Below, piece after piece: positions 43,766 through 60,089 of a stretch of DNA of 64,000 nucleotides. This stretch comes from a bacterium (GTDB lineage Bacteria; Sysuimicrobiota; Sysuimicrobiia; Sysuimicrobiales; Segetimicrobiaceae), in contig DASSJF010000041.1 of assembly GCA_035691305.1 (NCBI GenBank), positions 1 through 64,000 on the forward strand. Reading direction: 5' to 3'. A model generated the notes under the pieces. That model ran no database searches, was not told the origin of the DNA, and saw only the letters and a list, made by a program, of their open reading frames with translations. Positions within the stretch are counted from its first letter, which is position 1; each line of letters starts with the position of its first letter. Position numbers and translations under genes: made by a program.

Positions 43766-45373
43766 ATGATGCGGACCGGTCTCTACCGTGTCGGCGCACT
43801 GGTGACGGCGTGCGCCGTGGCGCTCACGCTCGGCATTCCGTACGGCGGCCAGGCGGCCGCGCCTACATCGCTCCACGTCGCGATCGGCATCGATGCCGAC
43901 ACGCTGGACCCTGAAGGCCAGACGACCACCACCGTCGCCAACATGGTGGACTATATGTTCGACTCGCTCGTCTGGCCGAACGACGAGCGGTCCGGGGTGA
44001 AGCCCGGCGAGCCGCAGTACACGAAGCTCGTGCCGCAACTCGCGACGTCGTGGACGGTCAGCCGGGACGGCCTCACCTACACGTTCAAGCTGCGGCAGGG
44101 CGTCAAGTTTCATGACGGGACGGACTTCAACGCCGACGCCGTGAAGTTCAACGTGCAGCGCTGGCTCGACCCCGCCGTGCGCAACCCCAACCGTTACTAC
44201 TTCACGGACATCGATACGAGCCGCATCGAGACCCCGGACCCTTCCACGATCGTCCTGCATCTGAAACAGCCGAGCCCGACGTTGCTCGGCAGGATCGCGA
44301 GCGGTGTGGGCGAGATCCTGTCTCCCGCCGCGGTGCGGAAAATCGGCAACGACAAGATCCCGCTTGGACCCCTCGACGCGGGCACGGGGCCCTACGTGTT
44401 CAAAGAGTGGGTCCACGGCGACCACATCACACTCGTTCGCAACCCCGGCTACTGGGGCCGCAAGCCGTACTTTGACGAGGTCGTGTTCCGCGTCGTCCCG
44501 AACGCCGGTACCCGCGAGACGATGCTGCGCGCCGGCGACGTGCAGATGGCGTTCGAGCCGCCGGCGCCCGACGTGCCGGCGTTGCGCCGGGACGCAGGCC
44601 TTCGCGTCGTCGAGGGGCCGAGCGACCGCGATGTGTTCATCGGCCTCAACAATCAGTACGGGCCGCTCAAGGACGTGCGGGTCCGGCAGGCGCTCAACTA
44701 CGCGATCAACAAGCAGGCGATCATCCACAGCGTGCTCTTCGGGCTGGCGACGGTACTCGAATCGCCGACCACACCGGCCCTTTTCGGGTACGCGAAGCTC
44801 CAGGCCGGCGGGTGGCCGTTCAACCCCGTGAAGGCGAAGGCCATGCTGGCGGAGGCCGGGTATGCCAACGGCTTTACCCTGAACTTCCGTACCCCGACCG
44901 GCCGCTACATCCAAGACTACCAGTTCGCGCAGGCCGTCGCCGCGCAGCTGGCCAACGTGGGGATCAAGGCCCAGATTCAAACCACCGACTGGCCGACCTA
45001 CGTCAGCTGGATCCTGACCCCGCTCGAGCGGACGCCGCTGCAGATCTTCGTGCTGGGCTGGGCGACGCAGTACCTCGACGCGGACGGCGAGCTGTACGGG
45101 CAGTTCTACTCGGCGCAGGCGCCGCCGAAGGGGCTCGCGCCGTCGTTCTACAAGGACGCCAAGGTCGACGAGCTGCTGATCGCCGGGCAGACGACGTCGG
45201 ATCCCAAGAGGCGCGAGGCGATCTATAAGGAAGCGCAGCAATTGATCTGGAACGACGCGCCGTGGATTTTCCTGTGGAGCCAGAACTTCTACGTGGTGAC
45301 GAGCAGCCGCCTGGAAGGCGTGACGACCACGCCCAACGAGAAATGGGCGGCGATCTACGCCACGTGGAAGTAG
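43766..45373 (+). CDS. ABC transporter substrate-binding protein, SBP_bac_5 (Dpp/Opp type), normal domain order
   Basis: The 535-residue protein has a signal peptide (about 1-31). The usual family order follows: PTSLHVAIGIDADTLDPEGQ, LTYTFKLRQGVKFHDGTDF (about residues 105-125), VRQALNYAINKQAI, then MLAEAGY and the C-terminal domain with VAAQLANVGIKAQIQTTDW and RREAIYKEAQQLIWNDAPW. Such proteins bind oligopeptides, glutathione or other polar organics for import. AAGGGGGAGG precedes ATG 43766. Two permease genes follow but no ATPase gene. It is the reference for the permuted protein at 52011. Confidence 0.93.
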   Translation: MMRTGLYRVGALVTACAVALTLGIPYGGQAAAPTSLHVAIGIDADTLDPEGQTTTTVANMVDYMFDSLVWPNDERSGVKPGEPQYTKLVPQLATSWTVSRDGLTYTFKLRQGVKFHDGTDFNADAVKFNVQRWLDPAVRNPNRYYFTDIDTSRIETPDPSTIVLHLKQPSPTLLGRIASGVGEILSPAAVRKIGNDKIPLGPLDAGTGPYVFKEWVHGDHITLVRNPGYWGRKPYFDEVVFRVVPNAGTRETMLRAGDVQMAFEPPAPDVPALRRDAGLRVVEGPSDRDVFIGLNNQYGPLKDVRVRQALNYAINKQAIIHSVLFGLATVLESPTTPALFGYAKLQAGGWPFNPVKAKAMLAEAGYANGFTLNFRTPTGRYIQDYQFAQAVAAQLANVGIKAQIQTTDWPTYVSWILTPLERTPLQIFVLGWATQYLDADGELYGQFYSAQAPPKGLAPSFYKDAKVDELLIAGQTTSDPKRREAIYKEAQQLIWNDAPWIFLWSQNFYVVTSSRLEGVTTTPNEKWAAIYATWK

Positions 45374-47741: not shown

Positions 47742-48905
47742 ATGGCCGTGAAGATCGCCGACGTCAAGGTTTACGTGATGGGATCGGCGTGGCGCAACTT
47801 CGTCTTCGCCCTTGTCCGCACGGACGACGGGCTCGAGGGCGTCGGCGAGGCGCGGCCCGTGAACCGCGAGGAGGCCGTCGCGGCGTATCTCGAGGCGATC
47901 ACGCACCGCTACGTGCTCGGCAGCGATCCGTTCAACGTCGAAGATCTGCTGCTGCGCGTCACCCGAGACGACTATGAAGTGCCCGGCGCGACGGAGATGA
48001 CGGCGATCGCGATCGTCGAGATGGCGTGCTGGGACATCATCGGTAAATCACTCGGCCAGCCGGTCTACCGGCTGCTCGGCGGGCGGTGCCGGGAGCGGAT
48101 CAAGGCCTACGCGAACGGCTGGTACCAGGTGGTCCGCGCGCCGGAGGAATTCGCGCAGGCCGCGCGCCGCGTGGTGGCGCGCGGGTACCGCGCGCTGAAG
48201 TTCGATCCGTTCGGCGCCGGCGCGGGCGAACTGAGCCGCGCGGAGCACCGCCGGTCGGTCGAACTCGTCTACGCGGTGCGGGACGCGATCGGCCCCGAGG
48301 TCGAGTTGTTCGTCGAGATGCACGGCCGGTTTACCGCCTCGCAGGCGATCGCGCTCGCGCGCGATTTGGAGGGCGCGGCTCCGGGCTGGCTCGAGGAGCC
48401 GGTGCCCCCCGACCAGCCCGCGGCGCTGGCGCGGGTGGCGGCGCACACGCCGCTGCCGATCGCCACCGGCGAACGGCTGCACACCCGCGCGGCGTTCCGC
48501 GACCTGTTCATGCTGGGCGCGGTGGACGTGGCGCAGCCCGATCTTTCGCACTGCGGCGGAATTTTGGAGGCGAAGAAAATCGCGGCGATGGCCGAGGCCC
48601 ACGGCGTGGCGCTGGCGCCGCACAACGTCGGCGCATCGGTCAGCACCGCCGCGGCGCTCCACCTGGCCGCGTGCGTACCCAACCTCAAGATTCAGGAATA
48701 CTTCAACGACTTCGACGACCCGTTCGTGGCGGAGACAGCGACGGGGTTGCCGCCCGTCACGGACGGTTGCTTCGCGCTCCCGGAGCGCCCCGGGCTCGGC
48801 GTGACGTTCAACGAGGACGTGGTGCTTGCGCACCCGTACCGCCGCCAGCACTTCAATCTGTTCGCGGAGGACTGGCAGCGCCGCCAGGCCAAGCCCGTGC
48901 CCTGA
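47742..48905 (+). CDS. Enolase-superfamily sugar-acid dehydratase (mandelate racemase/MLE type)
   Basis: The 387-residue protein has the capping domain (1-120) and barrel. Visible catalytic features are Lys153 in ALKFDPFG (a KxD motif), putative metal ligands Glu192, Glu218 or 219, and Glu244 (FVEMHGR, WLEEPV, ATGERL), and Asp267 with His294 (APHNVGA) as the acid/base pair. The KFDPF motif and His pattern recall gluconate/galactonate dehydratases, which make 2-keto-3-deoxy acids, but muconate-type activity is not excluded. Gfo/Idh genes downstream are consistent with sugar or polyol metabolism. Confidence 0.9.
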   Translation: MAVKIADVKVYVMGSAWRNFVFALVRTDDGLEGVGEARPVNREEAVAAYLEAITHRYVLGSDPFNVEDLLLRVTRDDYEVPGATEMTAIAIVEMACWDIIGKSLGQPVYRLLGGRCRERIKAYANGWYQVVRAPEEFAQAARRVVARGYRALKFDPFGAGAGELSRAEHRRSVELVYAVRDAIGPEVELFVEMHGRFTASQAIALARDLEGAAPGWLEEPVPPDQPAALARVAAHTPLPIATGERLHTRAAFRDLFMLGAVDVAQPDLSHCGGILEAKKIAAMAEAHGVALAPHNVGASVSTAAALHLAACVPNLKIQEYFNDFDDPFVAETATGLPPVTDGCFALPERPGLGVTFNEDVVLAHPYRRQHFNLFAEDWQRRQAKPVP

Positions 48906-49044
48906 CGCCCGCCAGAGCAGGGGGCGCGGCACACCCATCACGAACCGCCTAGTGGTTCGACGTCAGCGCGTCCGGCCGGCCGGGGTGAAACTGAGGCCGG
49001 CCAACCCCGTGGGGCGACCCCTGTTTCTCGAACGGAGGCCCGAT

Positions 49045-50106
49045 GTGGCGACGCCCGTGAAGATCGGCCTGATCGGCTGCGGCAGCATTGCCCGCGGCGC
49101 GCATCTGCCCGCGATGGACGCGCTGCGGGACCGCGTCGCACTTGTCGCCGCGGCCGACTTGAATCGCGAGGCGGCCCAGGCGGCCGCATCATCGTGGGGC
49201 GCGGATGCCTACGCCGACGGCCGCCGGGTGGTCGACCGCGAAGACGTCGAGGCCGTCGTGATCACGACACCCGAGGCCGCGCACCGGGAGTGGACGGTCG
49301 CCGCCGCGGCGGCCGGCAAGCACGTCCTCTGCGAGAAGCCGATGGCCCCGTCGCTGGACGACGCCGACGCGATGGTCGACGCGTGCCGCCGTGCCGGCGT
49401 CCACCTGATGATCGGCCACAGCCGCCGTTTCACCCGCCGTTACATGGAGATCCGCCGCGCGATCGACCGCGGCGAAATCGGCTCCGTCCGGCTCGTCCGC
49501 GAGAACGAGCGGCGCCCCGGTGCGCGCGCCGGCCGGCCCGGTTATTACACGAAGTCGCACTGGACCGGGGATCCGTCGGTGTCGGTGGGCGCGGCGCTCA
49601 CGAACGGCATCCACGAGGCCGACCTGCTGCGCTGGTTCGCGGGATCGGAGCCCTCGTCGGTCTTTGCCGAGCACAAGGTCACGATCGAAGACAACCCGGG
49701 CGTGCCGGATTTCATCACCTGGACGGTACGGTTCGCCAACGGGGCGCTCGGTTCGAGCGAGGTCAGCAACTGCCTGCCGCCGGGCTATCCCGCGTTCCAC
49801 CAGTGCGAGGTCTACGGGCTGCGCGGGGCGATCCGCGCCCGGGACCACGAGCTCGTGAGCCTCACGCGCTTCCGCGATGGGGCCGCGGATTATCCCGAGA
49901 GCACGCACATTTTGCTGCACAATCAGACGGCCTACACCCGCGAGCACGCGGCGTTCGTCGACGCCATCCGGTCGGGACGGCCGCTGCCGCTGGCGCCGGA
50001 GGACGCGCGCGCGGCTTTGCGGGTGGCCCTCGCCGCGGTGGAGTCCGCCCGCACCGGCGCCGTGGTGTCGCTCCTGGATGCCGGCGCCGCGGAGGCGCGC
50101 GCGTGA
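49045..50106 (+). CDS. Gfo/Idh/MocA family oxidoreductase
   Basis: The 353-residue protein has a Rossmann nucleotide site KIGLIGCGSIARGAH near the N-terminus, the catalytic-region motif CEKP (Glu97-Lys98-Pro99) and the C-terminal alpha/beta domain with GIHEADLLRWFAGS. Relatives oxidise sugars, inositols or related polyols with NAD(P). GTG 49045 is chosen because CGGAGG precedes it. It overlaps the second Gfo/Idh-like gene by GTGA at 50103-50106. Confidence 0.93.
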   Translation: MATPVKIGLIGCGSIARGAHLPAMDALRDRVALVAAADLNREAAQAAASSWGADAYADGRRVVDREDVEAVVITTPEAAHREWTVAAAAAGKHVLCEKPMAPSLDDADAMVDACRRAGVHLMIGHSRRFTRRYMEIRRAIDRGEIGSVRLVRENERRPGARAGRPGYYTKSHWTGDPSVSVGAALTNGIHEADLLRWFAGSEPSSVFAEHKVTIEDNPGVPDFITWTVRFANGALGSSEVSNCLPPGYPAFHQCEVYGLRGAIRARDHELVSLTRFRDGAADYPESTHILLHNQTAYTREHAAFVDAIRSGRPLPLAPEDARAALRVALAAVESARTGAVVSLLDAGAAEARA

Positions 50107-51169: not shown

Positions 51170-51874
51170 ATGCGCATCGCATACATCGGCCCGCAGGGCC
51201 GGAATTCGGTCTTGCAGGGGTGGGCCAGTCCGGGCGTCGTGGTCGAGACCCGCAGCGCGAACTTCAACGGCGTGATTGAGTCACAGTACGACGAGTATCT
51301 GTATGTGCCGCGACTGCTCGAGGCCGTGGAGCAGATCGAGGGGGACGGGTTCGACGCGGCGCTCGTCGGCTGTTTCGGCGACCCGGGGCTCGACGGGGTA
51401 AGGGAACTCGCGCGGATGCCGGTGGTGGGTCCGGCCGAGGCATCGCTGCACGTCGCCGCGATGCTGGCCGACCGATTCGGGATCATCACCGCGACGCCCG
51501 AGATCCGGTCGCCGCTTTACCGGCTGGCGGAGCGGTATCACGTGGACCGGCAGCTCACCGGTGTGACGGACATCGGGTGCCCTATCCTGGACATCCGGCG
51601 GGATCCGGACGCCCACTACCCGGTGCTCGTCGAGGTGGCGCGGCGCATGCTGCGGGAGCAGGGCGCGCAGGCGCTCGTCCTCGGCTGCGGCAGCATGGCC
51701 TTCTACGCCGACCGGCTCGCCGGAGACACCGGCGTGCCCTGCGTCAACCCGCTGCGCGTCGGGTTGAAGATGTGCGAGCTCCTTGCCGGCGCCGGCCTCA
51801 CGCACTCGAAACTGACCTATCCGTATCCGTCGAGCCGGCGAACGCCGGCGGAGCCGCACGCCGTCGCGAGGTGA
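51170..51874 (+). CDS. Asp/Glu/hydantoin racemase family protein
   Basis: The 234-residue protein carries the two cysteines of the family in the expected halves: Cys in ALVGCFGDPGLD and Cys in ALVLGCGSMAFYAD. The nearby SANFNGVIESQYDEY and GIITATPEIRSP also fit hydantoin racemase and maleate isomerase relatives. The reaction is two-base racemisation or isomerisation. It follows the Gfo/Idh pair by 65 bases with GGGGGGTGAG before ATG 51170. Hydantoin versus maleate-type chemistry is undecided. Confidence 0.88.
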   Translation: MRIAYIGPQGRNSVLQGWASPGVVVETRSANFNGVIESQYDEYLYVPRLLEAVEQIEGDGFDAALVGCFGDPGLDGVRELARMPVVGPAEASLHVAAMLADRFGIITATPEIRSPLYRLAERYHVDRQLTGVTDIGCPILDIRRDPDAHYPVLVEVARRMLREQGAQALVLGCGSMAFYADRLAGDTGVPCVNPLRVGLKMCELLAGAGLTHSKLTYPYPSSRRTPAEPHAVAR

Positions 51875-52010
51875 GCGCCGTGCGGACGCGCTCGTGGGCG
51901 TGAAGGAGTACGCGCGCGACGGGTCGGAATTGTCGAACGCGATCCGCCAGACGGGATCGGCCCGGGGGAGGGAAACCGGGCGGCAGCTATCCTAGGGTAG
52001 GGAGGACGCC

Positions 52011-53690
52011 ATGCGAGCACGGGTAGTGAAAGTAGCTCTTGCGGCCGCTGCGATCGCGGCGATGTTCGTCGGAGCGGCGCCCGGCACGAACGCACAGGCC
52101 AGCCGTCAGGTGCGCGAGCTGGTCCTGGTCACGTGGCCGCAGGCCGCCGATCCGCAGCAGTACGAAGCGGCGCGCATCGCGGCCGAGGGGATGCGCAAGC
52201 TCGGGCTCAAAGTCACGGTGCGCCCGATGCCATGGGAGCAACTGGCCGACTACGTCTGGTACAACCGCGAGAAGTGGGACATGACGACGTGGCAGATGGT
52301 CGGTCGCCCCGAACGGTCCGATCCGGACGAGATCCTCGTCAACCTGTTCTCGTCCGGCACCGCGAAGGACGGCTACAACTTCGTCGGGTTCCTCGATCCG
52401 TCCTACGACAAGATCGCGGAGGAGCAGCGCTCGGCGACCGACCCGGCCGCCCGGCGGCGGCTGGTCTACGAAGCCCAGCAGATGCTGGCGCAGCAGCAGC
52501 CGTACACCCTGCTTGTGAACCCGAAGTCCATCTATGCCTACAACAGCCAGGTGTGGGACTCGAAGACGATCGTGGAGCAGAAGGGCATCGGCATCAAGAA
52601 CTTCTGGACGTTCATTCAGGCGACGCCGAAGGGCGCGCAAAAAGACATGATCCTGAACGCCCAGGACCCGGTGCAGGCGATCAACCCGCTGTACATCAGC
52701 GGCAAGGTCGATTCGTGGATCACCGAGCTGATCTGGGACCGGCTCGTCCGAATCGGGCCCGACGGCCTCCCGCAGCCCTGGGCGGCCAGCGCGTACAAGT
52801 GGGTCAGCCCGACCGTCCTCGACGTGACGCTCCGGCCGGGCATGAAGTGGCACGACGGCCAGCCGGTGACGGCGGACGACGTCATCTTTTCGTTCACGGC
52901 GCCCCAGGGCGACAAGGTGCCGATGTACCGGCCGTTCGTCGCCAACATCGAGAGCATCAAGACGCTCAGCGCGACGGCGCTGCGGTTCACGCTGAAGAAG
53001 CCGCAGGCCGCGTTCCTCACCTCGACGCTCGGCAAGGTGAACCTGGTGCCGAAGCATGTGTGGGCGCCGATGCTGCAGTCGCTCCAGGGCAAGAAAGAGA
53101 ACGCCGAAACGCTCCAGGAGAAGGCGCCGATCGGCTCGGGTCCGTTCAAATTCGTGAGCTGGACGCGCGGGCAGGAGGTCGTGCTAGAGGCGAACCCGCA
53201 GCACTGGGCCGCCCCGAAGATGCACCGCTGGATCCTCCGCACCGTGGCGAACGTTGAAGCGTCGCTCGGCGGGCTGCGCAACGGCGAGATCAACTTCCTC
53301 TCCGACTACCTCGGCGATCCGGAGGTTCTGGCGCGCCTGAGCCGTCAGGATCCGCGCATCACGGTTGTCGCGTCGACCGACATCGGCTTCCAGTTCATCG
53401 GATACAACGAGCGCCGGCCGCCGTTCAACGACCCGGCGTTCCGCAAGGCGCTCGGCATGGCGATCGACCGGACCATGATTCGGCTGGTGGCCTACAAGGG
53501 CTACGGCGTGGTCGCCGACTCGCCGGTCAGCAAGGCGCTCGAGTACTGGCATGCTCCGAACCTGCCGGACTTGACATACAACGTGAAAGCGGCCCGCGAT
53601 CTCCTCAAGGGGGCCGGCTACGACTGGGACAGTCAGGGGCGGCTGTTGTATCCATCGAACGCGACGGAGACGCTCCAGGTCGCGCGGTAG
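52011..53690 (+). CDS. ABC transporter substrate-binding protein, SBP_bac_5 type, circularly permuted
   Basis: The 559-residue protein has a signal peptide (about 1-29). Residues about 30-190 read like the normal C-terminal third of the family: AARIAAEGMRKLGLKVTVRP and ARRRLVYEAQQMLAQQQPY. Residues about 215-559 read like its N-terminal two thirds: ELIWDRLVRIGPDG, LDVTLRPGMKWHDGQPVTAD, FRKALGMAIDRTMI and finally AARDLLKGAGYDW. In the paralogue at 43766-45373 these blocks occur in the opposite order. A strong GGGAGG precedes ATG 52011. It heads a complete Dpp/Opp operon, so it is probably a functional receptor for a peptide-like solute. Confidence 0.9.
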   Translation: MRARVVKVALAAAAIAAMFVGAAPGTNAQASRQVRELVLVTWPQAADPQQYEAARIAAEGMRKLGLKVTVRPMPWEQLADYVWYNREKWDMTTWQMVGRPERSDPDEILVNLFSSGTAKDGYNFVGFLDPSYDKIAEEQRSATDPAARRRLVYEAQQMLAQQQPYTLLVNPKSIYAYNSQVWDSKTIVEQKGIGIKNFWTFIQATPKGAQKDMILNAQDPVQAINPLYISGKVDSWITELIWDRLVRIGPDGLPQPWAASAYKWVSPTVLDVTLRPGMKWHDGQPVTADDVIFSFTAPQGDKVPMYRPFVANIESIKTLSATALRFTLKKPQAAFLTSTLGKVNLVPKHVWAPMLQSLQGKKENAETLQEKAPIGSGPFKFVSWTRGQEVVLEANPQHWAAPKMHRWILRTVANVEASLGGLRNGEINFLSDYLGDPEVLARLSRQDPRITVVASTDIGFQFIGYNERRPPFNDPAFRKALGMAIDRTMIRLVAYKGYGVVADSPVSKALEYWHAPNLPDLTYNVKAARDLLKGAGYDWDSQGRLLYPSNATETLQVAR

Positions 53691-53775: not shown

Positions 53776-54765
53776 ATGAGACGTACGTCGTCGCGCTGGA
53801 TTCTGCAGCGCCTCGCGCAGATGGCGCTCGTGCTGTGGGTCATCGCGACGATCCTGTTCTTCATCTTCCGGCTGATGCCGGGCAACCCGCTCGTCGCGTA
53901 CCTCGATCCGAATTTCACGGCCGAGCAACAGCGGGCACTCATCCACGAGTTCGGCCTCGATCTGCCGCTGTGGCAGCAGTATCTCGTATACTTGAAGGCG
54001 TCCGCGACCGGGCACATGGGGCAGTCGTTCTTCTATCACGCTCCGGTGGGGCAGCTGGTCTGGGAGACGCTGCCGAACACGCTCATCCTCACCCTGGGCG
54101 CGGTGATTTTGGCGTATCTTTTCGGCGCCGCCGCCGGCGCGTTCTTGGCGTGGAAGCGCGGGACGGCCGTGGAGGGCGCCGGGATCCCGCTCGTGCTGGC
54201 GGCGCGCGCGGCGCCGGAGTTCTGGGTCGGCATGATCCTGCTGGCCGCCTTCTCCTTCTCCAATCACTGGTTCCCGTCGTCGGGCACGGCGAGCCCCGGC
54301 GTCCAGTACACGTCCGTCTGGCAGCAACTGACGAGCGTCGACTTCCTGCACCACCTCGTCCTGCCGCTCGTCACGTTCGTGTTGTACCTGCAGGGACTGC
54401 CGCTCCTGCTCATGCGCAGCAGCATGCTCGACGTGATGGAGGAGGAGTTCGTCGTGATGGCGCGGATGAAGGGCCTGCCCGAACGGCGGATCCTCCTGCG
54501 CCACGCCGCCCGCAACGCGCTGCTGCCGGTGGCGACCGCGTTTGCGCTCGTCGTCGGCTACAGCCTCGGGGGCGACGTCGTCATCGAAAACGTCTTCAGC
54601 TGGCCCGGGCTGGGCCGGCTACTCGTGAAGGCCGTCGCGTCCAAGGACTACCCGCTCGCCCAGGGCGCGTTCTTGCTGATCGCGGCGCTCGCGATCTCGA
54701 TGAACCTGCTGGCCGATCTCGTTTACGGCTGGCTCGATCCCCGCGTCTCGTATGCGAAACGTTAG
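53776..54765 (+). CDS. dppB: Dipeptide-type ABC permease DppB
   Basis: The 329-residue membrane protein has RRTSSRWILQRLAQMALV at the N-terminus, FRLMPGNPLVAYLDP after the first helix and coupling loop VMARMKGLPERRILLRHAAR. The ORF begins at ATG 53776, 85 bases after the binding-protein stop. It overlaps the DppC gene by 14 bases. Compared with the 45466 permease it has an intact N-terminus. Confidence 0.95.
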   Translation: MRRTSSRWILQRLAQMALVLWVIATILFFIFRLMPGNPLVAYLDPNFTAEQQRALIHEFGLDLPLWQQYLVYLKASATGHMGQSFFYHAPVGQLVWETLPNTLILTLGAVILAYLFGAAAGAFLAWKRGTAVEGAGIPLVLAARAAPEFWVGMILLAAFSFSNHWFPSSGTASPGVQYTSVWQQLTSVDFLHHLVLPLVTFVLYLQGLPLLLMRSSMLDVMEEEFVVMARMKGLPERRILLRHAARNALLPVATAFALVVGYSLGGDVVIENVFSWPGLGRLLVKAVASKDYPLAQGAFLLIAALAISMNLLADLVYGWLDPRVSYAKR

Positions 54766-55672
54766 CGTCGAGGCGCTGCCGCGTCCGCGGGCGGCCGGGG
54801 CGCCGGCCTGGCGCCGCGCGCTGCGCGCGGCCGGCGGGGTGCTCTCGCACGACCGCTTCGCCGCCGCGGGCATCGGCATCTACCTGCTGTTCATCGCGGT
54901 GGCGCTGCTGGCGCCGTGGATCGCCCCGTACGATCCGCAGCAGACCATCGTGCGGGGCGACACGCTCATGGCCGGACGGCCGCCGGGCCGCGACTTTCTG
55001 CTGGGCACGACAAACGTCGGTCGCGACATCTTCTCGCAGCTGATCTACGGCGCGCGTCCGGCGCTGACGGTCGGGTTCGCCGCCGCCGTTGCCGTGACGC
55101 TGCTGGGGACGGCGGTCGGCATCGTCGCGGGCTACTCGGGCGGCTGGATCGATGGGGTGCTGATGCGCCTCGCCGACGTCGCCTTCGGCATTCCGTTCCT
55201 GCCGCTCGTGATCGTGCTCGTGGCCTTTCTGGGGCCGAGCCTCTGGAACATCGTCTTCACCATGGCGCTGCTGCTGTGGAAGGACACCGCGCGCGTCGTC
55301 CGCGCGCAGGTGCTCTCGCTGCGGGAGCGGGGCTTCGTCGATGCGGCGCGGGTGCTCGGGGCGTCCCCGGTCCGGATCATGCTGGAGCACATCGCGCCCA
55401 ACGTTCTCCCGATCGCGCTGCTCTACGGCTCGCTGGCGGTGGGCTGGGGAATCCTGACCGAGGCCGCCGTGAGTTTCCTCGGGTTCGGGGACTCCACCCA
55501 GATCTCGTGGGGCTTCATGCTGCAGGACGCCTACGTATCCCAGGCGCTCAGCAGCGGCGCGTTCAACTGGTTCGTGCCGCCGGGCGTCTGTATCATGCTC
55601 GTGGTGATGGCAGGCTACTTCATCAGCCGCGGCTACGAAGAACTGCTGTTCCCGCGCCTGCGGAGGCAGTAG
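54752..55672 (+). CDS. dppC: Dipeptide-type ABC permease DppC
   Basis: The 306-residue protein has a polar N-terminal extension (about 1-35), then FLLGTTNVGRDIFSQLIYGA, FGIPFLPLVIVLVAFLGPS and coupling loop DAARVLGASPVRIMLEHIAPN. It pairs with DppB in the membrane and ends four bases before the ATPase start, which indicates tight coupling. Confidence 0.95.
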   Translation: MRNVSVEALPRPRAAGAPAWRRALRAAGGVLSHDRFAAAGIGIYLLFIAVALLAPWIAPYDPQQTIVRGDTLMAGRPPGRDFLLGTTNVGRDIFSQLIYGARPALTVGFAAAVAVTLLGTAVGIVAGYSGGWIDGVLMRLADVAFGIPFLPLVIVLVAFLGPSLWNIVFTMALLLWKDTARVVRAQVLSLRERGFVDAARVLGASPVRIMLEHIAPNVLPIALLYGSLAVGWGILTEAAVSFLGFGDSTQISWGFMLQDAYVSQALSSGAFNWFVPPGVCIMLVVMAGYFISRGYEELLFPRLRRQ

Positions 55673-55676
55673 GCCG

Positions 55677-56690
55677 GTGGCGCTGCTCGCGATCCAGGAC
55701 CTGACGGTCGAGTACCGGCTGCGGCGCGGGATGCGCCGCGCGGTGGACGGTGTCACGCTGGAGGTGCGCTCCGGAGAGATCCTCGGCCTCGTGGGGGAGA
55801 GCGGCTGCGGCAAGACGACGCTCGGCCGCGCGATCATCCGCGTGCTGCCGCGCAACGCCCGGATCGCGGGCGGCCGCCTGCTCTTCGAGAACGTGGACCT
55901 CGCCGCGCTCGGAGAGACGGAGATGCGCGAGTACCGGTGGCGCAAGATCGCGATGGTGCCGCAGGCGTCCATGGACTCGCTGGATCCCGTGTACCGGCTG
56001 GGCGACCAGTTCGTCGAGGTGCTGACGGTCACCGGCGGCGTCCCGCGCGCCGCGGCGCGGGAGCGCGCCGCGGCGTTGTGCGACCACGTCGGGCTGGACC
56101 GGCGGCGGCTCGCGAGCTTCCCGCACGAACTCTCCGGCGGGATGCGGCAGCGGGCCGCCATCGCGATGGCCCTCGCCCTGCACCCGCGGCTCGTGCTCGC
56201 CGACGAACCGGTGACGGCGCTCGACGTGGTGGTGCAGCACCATGTATTGAGGCGACTGCGCGGGTTGACCGGCGAACTCGGGTTGAGTGTCGTGCTGATC
56301 ACCCACGACATCTCGGTGATCGCCCAGACCTGCGACCGCATGGCCGTCATGTACGCGGGCACGATCGTCGAACTCGGCGCGACGGCCGACGTATTCGCGG
56401 GTCCGATACATCCCTACACGATGGGCCTGCAGAACTCGTTCCCGAACCTCGTGCGGCCGCAGGATACGCTCATCCCGATCGAGGGCAGTCCTCCGGATTT
56501 GATCGATCCGCCGCCGGGCTGTCGGTTTGCGCCGCGCTGCCCCTTCGCCGTCGACCGCTGCCGCGTGGAGAATCCCGCGCTTCGCGAACTCGCCCCGGGC
56601 CGGTGGGCCGCCTGCCACCGCGCGGACGAGGCGGCGGGTCTGCGCGTGCAGTCCAAAGACGCGCGGCGGTGGCGCGCCGCCGTCTCATGA
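55677..56690 (+). CDS. dppD: Dipeptide-type ABC ATPase DppD
   Basis: The 337-residue ATPase has Walker A GESGCGKTTLGRA, signature LSGGMRQRAAIAMAL, Walker B LVLADEPVTALDV and H-loop ITHD. The C-terminal oligopeptide/dipeptide domain ends in CRFAPRCPFAVDRC, a Cys cluster that binds an iron-sulfur cluster in some relatives. The start is GTG 55677. It overlaps the next ATPase gene by ATGA. Confidence 0.95.
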   Translation: MALLAIQDLTVEYRLRRGMRRAVDGVTLEVRSGEILGLVGESGCGKTTLGRAIIRVLPRNARIAGGRLLFENVDLAALGETEMREYRWRKIAMVPQASMDSLDPVYRLGDQFVEVLTVTGGVPRAAARERAAALCDHVGLDRRRLASFPHELSGGMRQRAAIAMALALHPRLVLADEPVTALDVVVQHHVLRRLRGLTGELGLSVVLITHDISVIAQTCDRMAVMYAGTIVELGATADVFAGPIHPYTMGLQNSFPNLVRPQDTLIPIEGSPPDLIDPPPGCRFAPRCPFAVDRCRVENPALRELAPGRWAACHRADEAAGLRVQSKDARRWRAAVS

Positions 56691-57664
56691 CGGCGCCGCT
56701 GATCGACGTCGACGGACTGCGGAAGTACTTTCCGCTGCGCCGTGCCTTCTGGAGCCGCACCGGCGGCCACTACGTTCGCGGCGTCGACGGCGTCTCGTTC
56801 GCGGTGCCGCGGGGTTCGTCGCTCGGCATCGCGGGCGAAAGCGGCTGCGGCAAAACCACCCTGGCCCGCCTGCTCGTGCGGCTGCTCGCCGCAACCTCGG
56901 GCAGCGTCCGGTTCGACGGCGCCGAGATCGGGCTGCTCGCCGGGCCCCGGCTGCTCGCGTTTCGGCGGCAGGCCCAGATGATGTTTCAGAATCCGTACGA
57001 GGCGATCAATCCCCGCTTCACGATCGGTCGGGCGCTCCTCGAACCGCTCATCATCCACCGCATCGGAACGCCGGACGACCGGATGGACCGGGTGACGGCC
57101 GCCCTGGCGCAGGTGCAGCTCTCGCCCCCCGGGACATTTGTGGATGCGTTTCCGCACCAGCTGTCGGGCGGGCAGCTGCAGCGCGTCGGTCTGGCGCGCG
57201 CCCTGTTGGTCGATCCGATCTTCCTCATCGCCGACGAGCCGGTGTCGATGCTGGACGTCTCCATCCGGGCCGGCATCCTCAACCTCATGAAGGAGATCGC
57301 GCGCACCCGCCAGCTCACGACCGTGTATATCTCGCACGACCTCGCGCTCGTCCGCTATGTCTGCGACACCACGATGATCATGTACCTCGGGGCCGTGGCG
57401 GAGATGGGGCCGACGCAGGAAGTCCTGACGAGAGCCAAGCACCCGTACACCCGCCTGTTGCTCGCCGCGGCGCCCGTCCCGGACCCGACCTTTCGCGTCC
57501 CGGAGATCGCTTCGACGGAGCTCGTGCCGACCGCGATCGGGCCCGCGCGGGGGTGTCCGTTCGTGGACCGCTGCCCCGAGGCGATGCCGGTCTGCCGGAC
57601 GACCGTGCCGCCGTCGACGCTCGTCGGTCCGGGGCACCACGCGGCGTGCCACTTGTACGTTTGA
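56687..57664 (+). CDS. dppF: Dipeptide-type ABC ATPase DppF
   Basis: The 325-residue ATPase has Walker A GESGCGKTTLARL, Q-loop MMFQNPYEAINPRF, signature LSGGQLQRVGLARAL, Walker B FLIADEPVSMLDVS and H-loop ISHD. A C-terminal CPFVDRCPEAMPVC cluster matches the DppD-type cluster. ATG 56687 overlaps the DppD stop. The start YFPLRRAFWSR is typical of DppF. It completes a heterodimeric ATPase for the Dpp importer. Confidence 0.95.
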   Translation: MTAPLIDVDGLRKYFPLRRAFWSRTGGHYVRGVDGVSFAVPRGSSLGIAGESGCGKTTLARLLVRLLAATSGSVRFDGAEIGLLAGPRLLAFRRQAQMMFQNPYEAINPRFTIGRALLEPLIIHRIGTPDDRMDRVTAALAQVQLSPPGTFVDAFPHQLSGGQLQRVGLARALLVDPIFLIADEPVSMLDVSIRAGILNLMKEIARTRQLTTVYISHDLALVRYVCDTTMIMYLGAVAEMGPTQEVLTRAKHPYTRLLLAAAPVPDPTFRVPEIASTELVPTAIGPARGCPFVDRCPEAMPVCRTTVPPSTLVGPGHHAACHLYV

Positions 57665-57693
57665 CCGCCGCCACATCCCGCCGGAGGGTGACG

Positions 57694-58911
57694 ATGAAGC
57701 GAAAGAACTATCGAGGATACCGGTCGTTCCAGTATCTCGAGCCGGGCGTCGACTACAAGCCGTTCAAGCTCGCCGCACAGCTCGGCCGCGTCGCCTCGAC
57801 GCCGTATCCTGTGTCCGCGGAGCAGGAGGCGCGCGTCCAGCGGCTGTTCGAGGAACAGGTGGTCATCTCGCTGCACGAGCACTGCTTCGTCGCGCCGGAG
57901 AACCTCGAGGAGATCTGGGAGTTCCGGCGGTGGGGGCGCGATTGGACCGCCTACGAAGGGCTGGCCGCCTCGGGTCTCGACGCCGTCTTCGACAACCTGA
58001 TGGACGGCACGGCGCTCATCCATTCGCGCGCCGGGTGGAAGTGGGACGACGTGCTGACCGATCTCGGCCTGCGGCTTTCCGACATCGCTCACCAGGACAT
58101 GGTGATCCAGTGCCGCACCGTCGCCGACATCCACCGGGCCAAGGCGAACGGCCAGATCGCGTTCATCCCCGCGCTCGAATGCATCACGATGATCGAAAAC
58201 GAGCTGGACCGGCTGGACGTCCTCTACGGCTTCGGCGTCCGGAACATGGGGATCGCCTACAGCGAGGGCAATGCCGCCGGCGCCGGTCTGCGCGAGGCGC
58301 GGGACGGCGGGCTCACCCAGTTCGGCCGGCAGGCCGTGCGGCGGATGAACCGGCTCGGCGTCGCGATCGACGTCTCACACAGCGGCGACCAGACGAGCCT
58401 CGATACGGTCGAGGTGAGCGAGGATCCCGTTTTCATCACGCACGCCGGCGCCCGCGCGCTGTGGAACACGAGGCGGCTGAAGCCGGACGACCTGCTCCGG
58501 GCCTGCGCGGCCAAGGGCGGGGTGATCGGCATCGAGGCGGCGCCGCACACGACGCTCACCAAGAAGCATCCGCGCCACACGATCGAGTCCGTCATGGAGC
58601 ACTTCGAGTACGTGGCGGAGCTCGTAGGGATCGACTCCGTCGCCTTCGGACCCGACACGCTCTTCGGCGACCACGTCGGCCTGCACCACGTGTTCGCGAA
58701 CCAACTGTCGATCTCGAGCGCGCACGGAACGAAGGACTTCGAGGAGGTCGAGTACGTGGACGGGCTCGAGAATCCCGCGGAGGGATTCTGGAACATCACC
58801 CGCTGGCTGGTCGCGCACGGCTACTCGGACGCGGAGATCGCCAAGGCGATCGGCGGCAACGTCCTGCGAGTGCTCGAGCGGGTCTGGGCGCCGAGGAGCG
58901 GAGCGGCATGA
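57694..58911 (+). CDS. Membrane dipeptidase (peptidase M19) family protein
   Basis: The 405-residue (alpha/beta)8 metal enzyme has SLHEHCFVAP (HxH in place of the usual HxD), PALECITMIE (bridging Glu), VAIDVSHSG and FITHAGAR (His ligands) and FGPDTLFGDH (Asp). M19 enzymes hydrolyse dipeptides, including those with D-residues. It lies 29 bases after DppF and overlaps the amidohydrolase gene by four bases, so it probably processes the imported peptide. No signal peptide, so it acts inside the cell. Confidence 0.9.
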   Translation: MKRKNYRGYRSFQYLEPGVDYKPFKLAAQLGRVASTPYPVSAEQEARVQRLFEEQVVISLHEHCFVAPENLEEIWEFRRWGRDWTAYEGLAASGLDAVFDNLMDGTALIHSRAGWKWDDVLTDLGLRLSDIAHQDMVIQCRTVADIHRAKANGQIAFIPALECITMIENELDRLDVLYGFGVRNMGIAYSEGNAAGAGLREARDGGLTQFGRQAVRRMNRLGVAIDVSHSGDQTSLDTVEVSEDPVFITHAGARALWNTRRLKPDDLLRACAAKGGVIGIEAAPHTTLTKKHPRHTIESVMEHFEYVAELVGIDSVAFGPDTLFGDHVGLHHVFANQLSISSAHGTKDFEEVEYVDGLENPAEGFWNITRWLVAHGYSDAEIAKAIGGNVLRVLERVWAPRSGAA

Positions 58912-60089
58912 TTACGGCGATCACGGCGCAACGGGTGCTGGACTGTACGGGCAAGGCCCCGATCGAGCGCGGCGTGGTGCTCGTCGAAGGCGAGCGGATC
59001 AAGGCGGTGGGCCGGCGCGCCGACGTGGCCGTCCCGGCCCGCGCCGAGGTGATCGACTGCGGCGCGCAGACGGTGCTGCCCGGGCTCGTCGACGCGCACT
59101 CCCATGCGTCGATCGTCCCGGGCCTCGGCGACCAGATCGGGCAGTTGCGGCAGCCGCCGGCGCCGCAGCTGCTGCGCGCGGTGCGCAACCTGCGGACCGA
59201 CTTGTTGTCCGGCGTGACGACGCTGCGGGTCGTCGGTGAGGAGCACTTCCTCGACGTCGAGCTGCGCGACGCGATCGCGGCCGGCCGGCTGCCGGGCCCG
59301 CGCCTGCTGGTCGCGACCCGGCCGATCACCGCGCGCAACGGGCACGGCGCGGCGCTCACGTTTTCCGACGGCGAGCAGGAGATTCGCAAGCACATCCGCG
59401 AGAACGTCGCGGCCGGCGCGGACCTCATCAAGCTGTTCATGACCGGCGGCGTGTCGAGCAAGGGCACCGCGGCGCGGTGGTACGCGTATTCGCGGCATGA
59501 AGTCGAGGTGGCCGTCGAGGAGGCGCATCGCAACAGCAGGCCGGTCGCGGTGCACGCACACGGCGGCCCGGGGGTCCGCATCTGCATCGAGGCGGGCGTC
59601 GACACGATCGAGCACGGCAAGCTGACCGAGATGGACGACCTGATCGCGATGCGCCACCGGGGCACGTGGCTCGTCACCAACAACGCCGTCTCAGGGCACC
59701 CCGACGGCATCGAGAAGGGCGACGCGCACGTCCCGTCGATCATGGCGAAGCTGCTCGAGTCGCGCGAGAAGTCTCGCGAGAACTTTTCGGCGGTGCTCGA
59801 GAGCGGCGTGCGGTGGGCGCTCGGCACCGACTCCATGCACGGCCTGATGTGGTGGGAGATCGCCAAAGTGGTAGAGTGGGGCGCCGACCCGTACGACGCG
59901 CTGCGGGCCGGCACCCAGCGCGCCGCCCAGGCGATCGGCCTCGGCGACGACTGCGGTACCCTCGAGCCCGGCAAACGCGCCGACGTCATCTCCGTCGACG
60001 GAGACCCGTTGACGGACGTGGCCAGTCTCGCCCGCGTCGGCATCGTGATGCAGGGCGGCCGCCGGCGCGACACGCTCTCGGTGGAGTAG
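58908..60089 (+). CDS. Metal-dependent amidohydrolase family protein
   Basis: The 393-residue protein has the amidohydrolase features in order: small beta domain, VDAHSHASIV (His64, His66), DLIKLFMTGG with a likely bridging Lys, VAVHAHGG and TIEHGKL (His ligands), LGTDSMHG (catalytic Asp) and the closing GTLEPGKRADVISVDGDPL. It resembles the imidazolonepropionase/Xaa-Pro dipeptidase-like (prolidase) branch, which cuts amide bonds in cyclic ureides or dipeptides. It overlaps the M19 gene by ATGA. The exact substrate is not decidable. Confidence 0.9.
   Translation: MITAITAQRVLDCTGKAPIERGVVLVEGERIKAVGRRADVAVPARAEVIDCGAQTVLPGLVDAHSHASIVPGLGDQIGQLRQPPAPQLLRAVRNLRTDLLSGVTTLRVVGEEHFLDVELRDAIAAGRLPGPRLLVATRPITARNGHGAALTFSDGEQEIRKHIRENVAAGADLIKLFMTGGVSSKGTAARWYAYSRHEVEVAVEEAHRNSRPVAVHAHGGPGVRICIEAGVDTIEHGKLTEMDDLIAMRHRGTWLVTNNAVSGHPDGIEKGDAHVPSIMAKLLESREKSRENFSAVLESGVRWALGTDSMHGLMWWEIAKVVEWGADPYDALRAGTQRAAQAIGLGDDCGTLEPGKRADVISVDGDPLTDVASLARVGIVMQGGRRRDTLSVE

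Follow-up and report, generated by a model that had tools for sequence, protein, structure and literature searches.

A rearranged solute-binding protein gene in a DppBCDF-type operon

The window, a stretch of 64,000 nucleotides of a contig (DASSJF010000041.1; assembly GCA_035691305.1) from a bacterium of the phylum Sysuimicrobiota, encodes a family-5 solute-binding protein (SBP; SBP_bac_5, PF00496, cluster C) in which the two blocks of the usual chain stand in swapped order. The gene, its parts, its neighbours and the paralogue that served as a control are as follows.

43766–45373, + strand: non-permuted family-5 paralogue, control (Pfam, profile test, Foldseek)
51170–51874, + strand: Asp/Glu/hydantoin racemase family gene, probable operon member
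52000–52005, + strand: ribosome binding site GGGAGG, 5 bases 5′ of the ATG (read directly in the sequence)
52011–53690, + strand: gene of the circularly permuted family-5 SBP, 559 amino acids (open reading frame list, Pfam, phmmer, profile test, AlphaFold)
52011–52100, + strand: signal peptide, residues 1–30, cleavage probably after AQA (sequence pattern)
52107–52625, + strand: block B, residues 33–205, the C-terminal third of normal family-5 proteins (profile, DppA mapping)
52626–52640, + strand: new linker PKGAQ, residues 206–210, from the old C-terminus to the old N-terminus (Escherichia coli DppA mapping)
52641–53654, + strand: block A, residues 211–548, the N-terminal two thirds of normal family-5 proteins (Pfam, profile, DppA mapping)
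53655–53687, + strand: new C-terminal tail, short and variable, residues 549–559 (alignments; low pLDDT at the last residues)
53776–54765, + strand: DppB-type permease, same operon
54752–55672, + strand: DppC-type permease, same operon
55677–56690, + strand: OppD/DppD-type ATPase, same operon
56687–57664, + strand: OppF/DppF-type ATPase, same operon
About 57664–58911, + strand: membrane dipeptidase (peptidase M19), probable operon member, start approximate
About 58920–60089, + strand: amidohydrolase resembling Xaa-Pro dipeptidase, probable operon member, start approximate

The SBP gene runs from an ATG at 52011 to a stop codon at 53688–53690 and is, as the initial annotation described it, one open frame with a good ribosome site. 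That annotation also placed it at the head of a complete Dpp operon. It does lead a complete DppBCDF-type set, but the transcript may begin with an earlier gene, because the racemase gene precedes it on the same strand at a distance of 136 bases. The operon also holds a quinone-oxidoreductase-like gene. The open reading frame of 719 amino acids listed at 57930–60089 should not be taken at face value: over the first 330 residues it seems to shadow the M19 gene in another frame, and the second real gene is the amidohydrolase. Positions 47742–50106, behind the permeases of the normal-order paralogue, hold genes of the enolase superfamily (MR_MLE) and of the Gfo/Idh/MocA oxidoreductase type.

The protein is a circular permutant of the family-5 fold

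PF00496 matched the protein in two stretches, scoring 231.7 bits against a curated cutoff of 32.4, and matched the paralogue in a single stretch. When the PDB was searched with phmmer, residues 224–540 aligned with residues 35–346 of AppA (1xoc; 3.7e-31) and residues 52–177 with residues 375–495 of the same structure (2.6e-7), an order swapped with respect to AppA. The same picture came from a profile of ten normal-order proteins, consisting of the paralogue at 43766–45373, seven further paralogues of the same genome and one protein each from Deinococcus and Cytobacillus: residues 39–199 matched profile positions 355–507 (63.5 bits) and residues 216–541 matched positions 39–352 (213.6 bits). 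Doubling the protein end to end gave one unbroken match, from residues 216–729 to positions 39–507 (282 bits), and re-joining its blocks in the usual order gave a single-piece match to positions 39/40–507 (about 284–285 bits). The collinear family-5 order is thus absent from the native chain and is restored only by doubling or re-joining, whereas the control paralogue gave one full-length match directly. On the profile the breakpoint falls between positions 352 and 355, just past the AGYDW helix. The similarity of the N-terminal block is not a matter of chance, as this block matches the normal-order profile at 3e-21.

These results confirm that the protein encoded at 52011–53690 is a natural circular permutant of the family-5 solute-binding fold, and that it belongs to a permuted subfamily of SBP_bac_5 (cluster C) instead of being a standard member. 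They bear out what had been read from the letters in the initial annotation: the swapped blocks, the opposite (normal) order in the paralogue, the break after the AGYDW helix and the expectation of a continuous full-length match on a doubled sequence. The N-terminal block, for which an unrelated fold had been named as a possible objection, is the normal C-terminal part of the family fold. Domain annotation hides such proteins, since profiles with the collinear order return them as partial or two-piece matches.

Predicted structure and lobe topology

Structure prediction, which the initial annotation had suggested as a check, was done with AlphaFold on an alignment of 20 permuted proteins and gave one confident fold (mean pLDDT 89.9, pTM 0.85), with low values only in the signal peptide (pLDDT below 50 for residues 1–26) and at the last residues. 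Foldseek, which needs sequential order, aligned this model with NikZ, AppA and DppA structures over approximately 366 columns, with TM scores up to 0.51, whereas the normal paralogue matched the same kind of structures over approximately 500 columns (TM approximately 0.75) despite its poorer model (pLDDT 77.1). This is the pattern that a permutation predicts. Sequence and the confident model together suggest that block B docks in place of the normal C-terminal part. Among the PDB matches listed, whether from sequence or from fold searches, there was no permuted chain.

Mapped on E. coli DppA, the old ends are almost adjacent: mature K1 corresponds to K211 and E507 to T205, with only PKGAQ between them, so a link of about five residues connects the old C-terminus to the old N-terminus. 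Block A (DppA mature residues 1–341) covers lobe I and the first half of lobe II; block B (about 343–507) covers the second half of lobe II and the return to lobe I. With the known lobe limits of DppA (about 260/261 and 478/479), lobe I comprises residues about 171–456 of the permuted protein and lobe II residues 33–171 and 456–559. The sequence places the new termini in lobe II, just past the AGYxW helix, where a new signal peptide has been gained. Lobe I thereby becomes one contiguous segment inserted in lobe II, the reverse of the normal arrangement in which lobe II is the insert. Because the number of hinge crossovers is expected to remain two, Venus-flytrap closure and docking to the permeases should be kept. 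For biosensor design, the chain also provides an opening point that evolved naturally.

Naturally permuted SBPs are rare. The nearest precedent is MglB-2 (Tp0684) of Treponema pallidum, a natural circular permutation of an ABC SBP that forms a conserved subfamily, for which its authors proposed cluster Bc (PMC4990184). Like the protein described here, it is a naturally permuted ABC SBP kept as a subfamily; unlike it, MglB-2 belongs to the sugar-binding cluster B and its permutation needs an extra hinge crossover (PMC4990184). The present protein matches family 5 only, by both Pfam and Foldseek, which sets it apart from cluster Bc. Circularly permuted relations among solute-binding-type folds are also contained in the CPSARST set, which includes glycine betaine- and molybdate-binding proteins and CysB (PMC2395249), but these concern other clusters, have very low sequence identity and link different families instead of lying inside family 5 (PMC2395249). 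We found no report of a permuted family-5 protein, and so none described in the large DppA/OppA family, in the open-licence literature that we searched, in agreement with the initial annotation, which knew of no natural permutation in this family.

Permuted relatives are widespread and share one breakpoint

The same block order was found in other genomes, where the initial annotation had proposed to look for it: in the window's phylum, in Alphaproteobacteria, in haloarchaea and on several closed replicons. Full-length relatives at 85% and 80% identity come from metagenome-assembled genomes (MAGs) labelled Bacillota and ANGP1, and full-length relatives in Alphaproteobacteria have 53% identity. 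The order occurs in 16 of 43 genomes of the window's phylum and in 11 of 240 of Alphaproteobacteria, and is patchy, neither of two other genomes of the window's own genus having a permuted SBP. A Rhodoferax MAG was the only one of 229 genomes of its class with such a gene; the contig in question is 3.5 kb long and has possibly been mis-binned. Plasmids carry permuted SBPs in Neorhizobium, Roseomonas, Nitratireductor, Microvirga, Ketogulonicigenium, Maritalea and many haloarchaea. All 38 permuted homologues analysed share one breakpoint, at about profile positions 345–361 as judged by match ends, of which a few fall short or overrun. Matches from Deinococcus QL22 and a Cytobacillus plasmid resembled permuted proteins in their coverage (90% of the query, in two pieces) but have normal order, and served as controls.

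The window comes from a draft assembly of 87 contigs, which raises the question of whether the order is an artefact, either an assembly join of two genes, as the initial annotation had allowed, or a frameshifted or decaying gene. The relatives refute a join, since the same order recurs at 50–85% identity in unrelated bacteria, including on closed replicons. Decay is contradicted by purifying selection: comparisons of close relatives gave dN/dS values of approximately 0.12–0.19 for the whole protein, with blocks A and B alike at approximately 0.15. We consider an artefact of either kind to be extremely improbable, and the permuted order to be a property of a conserved protein.

A probably single origin and probable vertical and horizontal spread

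In a tree of re-joined SBPs (47 rows), all 32 permuted rows fell on one side of one branch, a clade that is moderately supported (73/86). A second tree was built from DppB and DppC of 32 operons and labelled by the order of the SBP. Here the permuted operons formed one clade (100/99), with normal-order operons of Cytobacillus and Meiothermus as sisters. Consistent with this, in a search across plasmids the 29 best relatives of the DppB encoded in the window (at least 42.8% identity) come from replicons for which permuted SBPs matched over their full length and collinearly, the status being assigned by replicon. Of the relatives ranking next, the five examined and Cytobacillus have normal SBP order. 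Because the permease clade coincides with the permuted order of the SBP, a single permutation event is likely. The distribution is best explained by one permutation that then spread vertically and horizontally, also between Bacteria and Archaea.

The gene would probably have been duplicated in tandem and the copies fused in frame, after which the outer parts were lost. No intermediate of this route was seen, and inspection by eye of the new C-terminal tail gave no convincing trace of a sequence duplication. Recombination of two different family-5 genes, in which the C-terminal part of one came to precede the N-terminal part of the other, would yield the same order, and these genomes hold very many family-5 genes: the window's genome has 83 places that match the permuted SBP, a very large set for 3.6 Mb, of which only the gene at 52011–53690 gives a full-length collinear match. 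However, once re-joined, the sequence is matched without a break by one family profile, and the SBP order falls in the same single clade as the permeases, even if the founding event may still have had two parents. We therefore regard recombination between two genes as improbable and favour permutation within one gene.

A predicted importer receptor with an altered ligand site

The protein resembles DppA/OppA/AppA/NikA-type SBPs in its predicted fold, in its homology over both blocks, in its signal peptide and in the DppBCDF-type genes of its operon, but differs from them in its rotated blocks, in having its termini in lobe II and in lacking R383 and D436 of DppA (precursor numbering). In DppA, these two residues bind the two ends of the peptide. 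In an alignment to DppA that passes through a loop with indels at this site, no basic residue of the permuted protein lines up with R383, and the residue opposite D436 is R99, which is nearly invariant in the 20-protein alignment. Judged by these two residues, the protein would not class as a DppA-type dipeptide receptor, and it scores 85 against a cutoff of 1005 with the NCBIfam DppA model. Among the Foldseek matches was a solved DppA mutant, 8z1z, which carries R383D and D436R.

The operon partners and the loss of both ligand-charge residues of DppA point to a ligand that is most likely small and peptide-like but not an ordinary zwitterionic dipeptide, having, for example, a D-residue, proline or a blocked amino end. 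From the loss of R383 and the position of R99, we tentatively suggest that the ligand lacks an ordinary free amino end, a proposal that we rate somewhat below even chances. The racemase gene also precedes the permuted SBP in Nitratireductor (37.5% identity), and other permuted operons adjoin genes for M20/M28 peptidases, hydantoinase/oxoprolinase, creatininase, D-aminoacylase, dipeptide epimerase or a TldD-related peptidase. Because these partners differ among lineages, the ligand class is uncertain.

Could the permuted protein instead have ceased to be a transport receptor and become a sensor or scavenger? Members in Natronorubrum and Haloarcula stand beside PAP2-type phosphatase genes and have no permeases annotated next to them. 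Yet two permease and two ATPase genes directly follow the permuted SBP gene of the window, as they do in most of the bacterial and archaeal relatives that were read; a change to sensing or scavenging is very unlikely. The export signal and the linkage to DppB/C and D/F, as expected of a cluster C SBP, are both present. Most likely, the protein works as the Venus-flytrap receptor of an importer of the DppBCDF type, which would take up small, probably modified or D-residue dipeptides. We hold with high confidence that it is a natural circular permutant of a DppA/OppA-type SBP and the predicted receptor of such an importer, co-inherited with it since a probably single permutation.

The position of the membrane tether may also have changed. 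A lipobox is present at the permuted N-terminus in most haloarchaeal members read, so in these the lipid anchor would sit on lobe II, as opposed to lobe I in normal members. It is conceivable, if rather doubtful, that this first described family-5 (cluster C) permutation arose once and was kept in Bacteria and Archaea because it changed function, by moving the tether from lobe I to lobe II or by altering folding or closing dynamics, in an importer dedicated to non-standard peptides. With one breakpoint, one likely origin, living normal-order sisters (Cytobacillus and Meiothermus) and cultivated bacterial and archaeal members, the question of whether chain connectivity and tether site matter for closing and docking is therefore testable.

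Two further observations concern the archaeal genes. Permuted SBPs at four archaeal loci (L016, L017, L053 and L072) have twin-arginine motifs as well as a lipobox at the permuted N-terminus. Three haloarchaeal SBP genes (L023:4040–5890, L023:6833–8629 and L054:493–2289) have no adjoining permeases, and each is followed directly by a PAP2-type phosphatase or inositol phosphorylceramide synthase-like gene; the second and third of these SBPs are permuted, and the permease-less genes have possibly been recruited for another role.
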